Below are positions 1 through 2,056 of a DNA stretch of 10,844 nucleotides, one piece after another. Under the pieces are notes generated by a model, which did no database searches, was not told the origin of the DNA, and saw only the letters and a program-made list of their open reading frames with translations. A program made the position numbers and the translations under genes. The stretch lies in the NCBI GenBank assembly GCA_937897265.1, contig CALCPT010000052.1, positions 1 to 10,844 on the forward strand, written 5' to 3'. Origin of the DNA: an uncultured Alcaligenaceae bacterium. GTDB taxonomy: Bacteria > Pseudomonadota > Gammaproteobacteria > Burkholderiales > Burkholderiaceae_B. Each line of letters starts with the position of its first letter. Within the stretch, counting starts at the first letter, position 1.

Positions 1-2056
1 CGCCGACGACACCCACGGCACGCCGGTGATGCTGCGCGCCGAATCCGAAGGCCTGACGCCGGAGCAACTGATCGAACGCGTGTGGAAGGAACACAAGCGC
101 GACTTCGACAATTTCTCCGTTGGTTTCGATAACTACTACTCGACCCACTCCCCGGAAAACCGCGCACTGTGCGAAGAGATCTACGGCAAGCTCGAACAGG
201 GCGGCCTGATCACCAAACGCCCGGTCGAACAGTTCTACGACCCGGTCAAGGCGATGTTCCTGCCCGACCGTTTCATCAAGGGCGAATGCCCGAAATGCGG
301 CGCCAAGGACCAGTACGGCGATTCCTGCGAAGTCTGCGGCGCCACCTACAGCCCGACAGAACTGAAAAATCCCTATTCAACGGTGTCCGGCGCGGAACCG
401 GTGCGCAAGTCTTCCGAGCACCACTTCTTCAAGCTGTCCGACCCGCGCTGCGAAGGTTTCCTGCGCCGCTACACCCAGGGCGACAACCATCTGCAGTCCG
501 AAGCCGCCAACAAGATGAAGGAATGGCTCGGTGAAGCCGGCGAAGGCAAGCTGTCCGACTGGGACATCTCGCGCGACGCGCCCTACTTTGGGATCGAAAT
601 CCCCGATGCGCCAGGTAAGTATTTTTATGTCTGGCTAGACGCCCCGGTTGGCTATCTTGCATCCCTCAAGTCGTATTGCGCCAAAATAGGCATCGATTTT
701 GACACGCTACTTGATCCAAACGGCGCAACCGAACAAGTGCACTTTATCGGCAAAGATATTGTGTACTTTCATGCTCTATTTTGGCCGGCAACGTTGCAAT
801 TTTCAGGTCGCAAAACGCCTGATCAACTCAATGTGCATGGGTTTATTACCGTCAGCGGCGAAAAAATGTCAAAAAGCCGTGGCACCGGGATCTCACCCCT
901 GCGCTACCTTGCGCTTGGCATGAACGCCGAGTGGATGCGCTACTACATTGCAGCGAAGCTCAACGCGCGCGTTGAAGATATTGACTTTAATCCTGACGAT
1001 TTCATCGCTCGCGTCAATAGCGATTTGGTTGGCAAATACATCAATATTGCAAGCCGCGCCGCCAATTTCGTTAGCAAATATTTTGATGGGCAGCTTGCCT
1101 ACCCTGACGATGCTGCCTTGTTGGGCAGCAACTGGGCACAAGCCGCAGACCGCATTCGTGCCGATCTTGAGGCACGCGAATACGGGCGAGCGATTCGCGA
1201 AATCATGGCGCATGCAGATCAAATCAATCAAGCCTTTGACGCCGCCCAGCCTTGGCTGATAGCCAAAACCTTGGCATCGGCCGAGCCCGCGCAACGCACC
1301 GCCTTGCAGCATATTTGCTCGTCAGCGCTGGCGGGTTTCAAAGCGCTATCTGTCATGTTGGCGCCGATCTTGCCCGCCTTGTCGCAACGTGTTGCCACTG
1401 AACTGTTTGGCCAAACCAATCATTTTGTTTGGGCAGACGCCGGTGTATTGCCCACCCAGATCAACCCTTTCAAACATCTGATGCAACGGGTTGAGCCAAC
1501 GATGCTCGATGAACTCTTTGAGATTCCAGCGCAGGATACAGCGCCCAAGCAAGCTGGCGCGTCCAAACAGACGGCCTCAGGTAAGCAAGGTGCAGCGGCT
1601 CACCAAGCGACAGCGGCACAACATCAGCAACCGACAGCTGCACAAGCCTCAGCCAACAATAGGACTGAAGTTTCAGGTGAAGCCACTGTCGCCCCGGGCG
1701 GCGAGCCGCTCGCCCCCACCATTACGATCGATGATTTTGTCAAAATCGATCTGCGCGTGGCACGTATCGTCAACTGCGAACAGGTTGAAGGTTCGACCAA
1801 ACTATTAAGGCTAACGCTTGATGTAGGCGAAGGCCGCCTGCGTAACGTGTTTTCTGGGATTAAGTCTGCCTACACGCCCGAGCAATTGATCGGGCGCCTG
1901 ACTGTTGTTGTCGCCAACTTAGCGCCTCGAAAGATGAAGTTTGGTATTTCTGAGGGCATGGTGTTGGCGGCCAGCCATTTTGACGACAAAGTCGACACAG
2001 GTATTTACGTGCTTGACCCCTCATCGGGTGCGCAGCCGGGCATGCGGATTCACTAA
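1..2056 (+). CDS. metG: Methionyl-tRNA synthetase, 5' end cut off by the window edge
   Basis: Charges initiator and elongator tRNA-Met with methionine in the cytoplasm (class I aminoacyl-tRNA synthetase). The reading frame is open from base 2 and begins [10 protein letters not shown], the conserved segment just after the first part of the Rossmann fold, so roughly 50 N-terminal residues including the HIGH motif lie outside the window. Visible features are a zinc-knuckle pair (CPKCG and CEVCG, about bases 287-340), the conserved block [10 protein letters not shown]...[11 protein letters not shown] (about 560-645) and KMSKS at 863-877. An Ala/Gln-rich linker (about 1545-1700) leads to a C-terminal Trbp111-type tRNA-binding domain (from about 1719). 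Length fits the long, dimeric E. coli type (677 residues). Codon use changes sharply near 590-615: upstream is GC3-rich, downstream is mixed. The protein nevertheless reads through without frameshift or gap. Identity is certain; the origin of the upstream part is not. Confidence 0.97.

Follow-up and report, generated by a model that had tools for sequence, protein, structure and literature searches.

A probable interspecies assembly chimera within metG at the end of a contig from an Alcaligenaceae genome bin

An interspecies chimeric contig is one in which non-overlapping parts match different species. This working definition is taken from PMC8171044, in which metagenome assemblers are described as generating chimeric contigs in high proportions on CAMI benchmark data. 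PMC8201837 describes misassemblies as relatively rare. For the enzyme concerned here, MetG (NCBIfam models NF001100 and TIGR00398), the titles and opening lines of abstracts of the papers listed on MetG recombination describe no hybrid or mosaic bacterial protein of the kind considered below, and no replacement of the MetG anticodon-binding domain. The nearest entry in that literature, by the same measure, is the MetRS of Mycoplasma penetrans with added domains (PMC13215547). On synthetase domain exchange, the question of whether GluRS2 is a chimera is posed in PMC3927822.

The window analyzed here is the whole of contig CALCPT010000052.1 (C52, 10,844 bases) from a bin of 728 contigs that is 89% complete with 3.2% contamination. 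The contig opens within a forward-strand metG frame that ends at base 2056. This frame scores above the curated cut-offs of NF001100 and TIGR00398 (786.8 vs 587 bits and 422 vs 336.35 bits), with hits across its length, but its two parts are of two lineages and the first 47–48 codons are absent from the contig. As in an interspecies chimeric contig, non-overlapping parts of C52 match different species, the foreign part lies at one end of the contig, and the apparent true neighbor of the native part is found elsewhere in the assembly, on contig C31. Unlike in the working definition, the join is inside a single gene with the reading frame kept, and gene-level annotation sees one normal MetG.

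Codon composition and ancestry across metG

It had been proposed from the letters alone that codon usage breaks abruptly near base 590 of metG, that leucine is almost always encoded by CTG or CTC before this point, and that the remainder of the window has the second codon style. All three observations were confirmed. The GC3 of the metG frame was found to be 0.811 for codons starting at 1–589 (196 codons), 0.518 at 600–929 (110 codons), 0.584 at 930–1499 (190 codons), and 0.560 at 1500–2055 (184 codons). The maximum-likelihood change point was located at base 587, where GC3 falls from 0.815 to 0.560. The log-likelihood gain was 20.95, compared with a maximum of 8.88 among 2000 codon shuffles (0/2000 reached the observed value). 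Using bins of 40 codons, GC3 was 0.80–0.82 until base 601 and 0.38–0.70 thereafter, a range that excludes the final bin of 4 codons (0.75). The share of CTG and CTC among the leucine codons was 13/13 within the first 196 codons and 14/42 after. The GC3 values of the seven other window genes that were measured, 0.485–0.62, correspond to the post-break style.

Two further features were noted beyond the end of metG. A gene for tRNA-Gly (CCC) is located just downstream at 2119–2192 on the reverse strand. A small frame at 2277–2480, named ThiS-like by eye, is directly followed by trmB. In related bacteria thiG is found between the ThiS-like frame and trmB, but there is no thiG between them here.

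Comparison with relatives demonstrates that two ancestries are joined near base 590 of metG. Diagnostic sites were defined as bases that differ wholly between four chosen donor-type and ten chosen same-genus sequences. There are 262 such sites, six of which lie beyond base 1380 and fall outside the following counts. Within bases 1–586 the donor-type base was found at 116/116 sites, and within 587–1380 the genus-type base was found at 138/140, the two donor-type exceptions being at 793 and 1216. The last donor-type diagnostic base before the switch is 559 and the first genus-type base is 592. The switch interval (560–591, forward strand) contains zero diagnostic sites and includes the composition change point; it covers the conserved [10 protein letters not shown] codons, in agreement with the earlier placement of the break within a conserved block ([10 protein letters not shown]...[11 protein letters not shown]). 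The foreign 5′ part (1–586, forward strand) encodes MetG residues 49–243 in P0121 numbering, reaches contig base 1, and is assigned to another betaproteobacterial lineage. The native remainder (587–2056, forward strand) continues in frame with it, starting near codon 249 (native numbering) and ending at the stop codon, and belongs to the Alcaligenaceae genus of the window.

The identities to individual relatives invert at the same place. Residues 1–194 of the window MetG were identical to P0121 at 194/194 positions (N-half protein search, among the matches listed), and residues 1–195 were 100% identical to L063, from a betaproteobacterial bin, and 97% identical to L062 and L067. Over residues 198–340 the identity to these three falls to 60–61%. 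The Alcaligenaceae bins L003–L009 have the reversed pattern, with 60–61% for the left part and 96–97% for the right part. At the DNA level, the left part shares 96% identity with L063 and 66–71% with ten same-genus bins. To the right of the break, L063 is 61–62% identical over 641–1400 and 67% identical over 1750–2056, and the ten same-genus bins are 83–89% identical over 641–940. The same-genus genes L003–L008 and L058 retain 90–100% protein identity per bin to L009 both left and right of the break, as far as residue 395, whereas the window drops to 55–64% identity to L009 on the left side only. After the break, the closest protein among the matches listed was P0002, with 144/145 and 333/344 residues identical (97–99%); P0002 is native-type from about codon 114 until the break.

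The first 31 or so residues of P0002 have only weak similarity to the metG sequences that were fetched, and the protein becomes native-type near codon 114. The P0002 contig (2710 bases) may hold another join or error in metG.

The 120 relatives listed for the whole frame and the 120 listed for the N half, with 8000 candidates scored in each search, have no protein identifier in common. Among the 120 whole-frame relatives, the top-scoring match to the N half reached 61%. The original prediction that the downstream part is Burkholderiales-like is borne out at the level of the Alcaligenaceae, which that guess allows. The proposal that the upstream half is more like Neisseriales-type MetG is not borne out by the titles compared: for this half, the nearest titled sequences are labeled “Burkholderiales”, “Pseudomonadota”, “Betaproteobacteria”, and “beta proteobacterium”, and one at 92% is labeled “Bordetella parapertussis”. 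The donor lineage is betaproteobacterial, and its bins carry broad names only, apart from the one titled Bordetella parapertussis. Some naming schemes place the Neisseriales inside the Burkholderiales, so the Neisseriales-type label may still apply.

Separate trees for the regions before and after about base 600, which had been suggested as a check, were found to be discordant and place the window with the donor lineage and with the Alcaligenaceae genus, respectively. The trees were built from 55 rows, comprising the window together with 49 fetched loci and 5 proteins. In the N-half tree the window groups with L063, P0121, P0122, L062, L067, L074, and P0124 (support 98), and in the C-half tree it lies beside P0002 among same-genus bins (12 rows, support 97). 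A tree in which the N half of the window is forced into the genus is worse by 170.6 log units (p-AU 0.0016). Over the post-break catalytic part (window residues 196–345), where the donor group alone forms one side of a branch, keeping the window among the donors carries a cost of 162.5 log units (p-AU 4e-60). The clade test on the C half (280.8 log units, p-AU 3e-22) is confounded, since the donor group alone costs 53.3 log units (p-AU 0.008); we think that this is due to the mosaic anticodon-binding segment of the donor group itself. The groups in all of these topology tests were chosen with the data already known, and the p-values are therefore optimistic.

The native metG start and the same-genus genomes

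The original prediction called for inspection of what lies upstream of the window. The window is the entire contig, but contig C31 (3829 bases) of the same bin carries a native metG start. The frame at C31:3587–3829 encodes the first 81 codons of metG and is open to the contig end. Its native codons 48–81 are a second version of window bases 1–103 (forward strand); C31:3727–3805 is 77% identical to window bases 1–79, and the protein alignment over the overlap is gapless. In a domain search of the bin, C52 and C31 were the only contigs with metG sequence; the remaining matches were frames of 900–970 residues, which are presumably other class I synthetases. When the donor-type L063 locus was searched against the bin, matches were obtained on C52 (81%) and on C31, C317, and C52 (67–73%), and no donor contig was found at the metG locus. 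The bin likewise yielded no match for the native stretch that should link the C31 end to the switch and that measures about 505 bases in relatives. Upstream of metG, C31 carries chromate-transporter-like genes, mrp, and dcd (named from reading the translations), and in close relatives, among them L006, L009, L058, and L065, the C31 sequence is located immediately 5′ of metG. The native start has a GC3 of 0.654 and 4/4 leucine codons that are CTG or CTC. Because this start is itself fairly GC-rich, ancestry separates it from the foreign part more cleanly than composition does.

Thirty-one same-genus genomes were searched in addition to that of the window. Thirty of these match both the C31 end and the window from base 590 onward, and G548 matches neither. 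The two homologues are located on one contig, 504–511 bases apart, in 30/30 of the genomes with matches. Given this arrangement, C31 is the expected left neighbor, and the first ~586 bases of C52 occupy the place of native sequence. One of the 30 matched genomes (G563) was left unfetched, and thus 29 genes were compared. The foreign half was found in 0/29 of the fetched same-genus metG genes, the N halves of which are 80–99% identical to the native-type P0012 vs 57–62% to the window.

Some further observations concern these genomes. G550 has two versions of the metG start, at C120:9225–9515 (92% identical to the C31 end) and at C463:2915–3023 (90%), and was counted by its C463 match, not by C120. 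Other bins of the genus may therefore also contain metG starts that are split or present twice. G567 and G568 have additional partial matches on second contigs. The set includes DNA identical to the loci of Zwartia panacis, Z. hollandica, and Z. vadi (L148 = L011, L150 = L022, and L156 = L023). The metG DNA of L005, L058, and L009 (= L131, L134, and L135) is the same as in genomes placed in the genus of the window, and the titles of these public bins, “Bordetella parapertussis”, “Candidatus Methylopumilus sp.”, and “Gammaproteobacteria bacterium”, look wrong.

A mosaic segment in MetG of the donor lineage

The donor-type MetG group (L063, L067, L062, L074, and P0121–P0141) has a sharply bounded diverged segment at about residues 396–565 (P0121 numbering), which we take to be the anticodon-binding domain. 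L063 and L067 are 95–99% identical in protein and 71–82% identical at third positions up to residue 395, 36–52% and 26–41% identical over residues 396–560, and 99% and 77% identical after residue 611. Pairs were compared among the 113 of the 120 listed N-half hits that are longer than 640 residues. Of the protein pairs with an identity of 97% or more over residues 1–395, 29/75 are below 65% in the segment. Conversely, P0135 and P0144 have the same segment (100% identity) but a catalytic part with 89% identity.

A similar situation is found in another genus (25 genomes around G208), where 41/300 pairs combine a catalytic identity of 93% or more with a segment identity below 75%. The gene of G208, a one-contig genome (L158), is 55–69% identical to the 24 others over residues 441–500. 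Over residues 1–385 it is 93–100% identical to 23 of the 24, and L182 is 84–93% identical. L177, L181, and L182 likewise stand alone in the segment. The pattern in these alignments resembles a natural exchange between lineages, in which an essential enzyme has had its tRNA-anticodon-binding part replaced, and it merits separate study. Such an exchange was considered as the cause of the break in the window and rejected: its boundaries are at about 395 and 565 vs about 243 for the window, and the diverged-segment pattern was not seen in the same-genus sequences that were compared.

Origin of the junction

The original prediction offered either a natural hybrid synthetase or two genomes joined in assembly at a conserved stretch. 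The two ancestries near base 590 stand, and between the two origins the evidence favors the assembly join. We are highly confident that C52 is an interspecies assembly chimera at metG, and the “hybrid” MetG enzyme is probably not real. The foreign sequence is confined to the contig end, the join is in a conserved stretch, native overlapping codons are present in the bin, and no second example of the junction was found among the sequences searched, as would be predicted for an interspecies chimeric contig. Sequence from a relative of L063 and P0121, another betaproteobacterium, would have been joined to the metG of the window organism within the conserved stretch at 560–591, and C52 would thereby extend about 586 bases leftward into the wrong genome. 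The real metG start of the organism would be the end of C31. The join would have been made by the assembly (or by chimeric library molecules) and most likely not by nature, with both organisms presumably present in one sample. An assembler would need a word shared by both genomes at the join. The longest exact word listed as shared by the fetched donor-type and genus sequences around the switch is 11 bases, and a 20-base word is shared further downstream; these lengths come from fetched relatives and not from the native DNA of the window species.

Natural homologous recombination could instead have swapped the 5′ part of metG in the organism or in a minority strain, with a crossover in the same conserved codons that would give a working hybrid MetRS. 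The frame is intact, the join is at homologous positions, and donor and recipient are both betaproteobacteria. A natural event is also made more likely by the mosaic metG of the donor lineage, whose members appear to exchange another part of the gene, the anticodon-binding domain, apparently by natural recombination. The boundaries of that exchange differ from the one in the window, however, and the foreign tract begins at C52 base 1 with no upstream boundary inside the contig. The bin also contains the native start, on C31, placed as in all of the same-genus genomes with matches. The same junction is absent from the 120 listed whole-frame relatives and from the 29 same-genus genes, and no other hybrid protein was found among the matches listed (120 whole-frame and 120 N-half, 8000 candidates scored each). 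We regard natural recombination as improbable on these comparisons. C31 could be from another strain in the bin, and if that were the native strain, recombination within a sub-population would be compatible with the data as well. The specific version in which a minority strain of the Alcaligenaceae population carries a hybrid MetRS, with its catalytic N half from the other betaproteobacterial lineage, and other cells keep the native gene of C31 is likewise judged to be improbable. Lastly, GC3 can differ along a gene, here by about 0.25, but the idea that the break is variation of one genome's own, with codon bias in a 5′ part that is conserved or strongly expressed and has no foreign ancestry, is refuted by the trees of the two parts and is scarcely credible given the uniformly donor-type left diagnostic sites, the cost of holding the N half with the genus, and the one-sided loss of identity to same-genus genes that are themselves alike on both sides.

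As an assembly chimera, C52 would represent a genome-quality error that is missed by gene-level checks: the joined gene is open, passes the MetG cut-offs, and would enter trees as one sequence. Use of the C52 record would mislead MetG trees, transfer scans, and claims of hybrid enzymes. A real junction, by contrast, would mean that an essential tRNA synthetase exists as a natural hybrid between lineages, and if the hybrid belonged to a minority strain, metG would be a gene at which these betaproteobacteria naturally exchange parts of enzymes.
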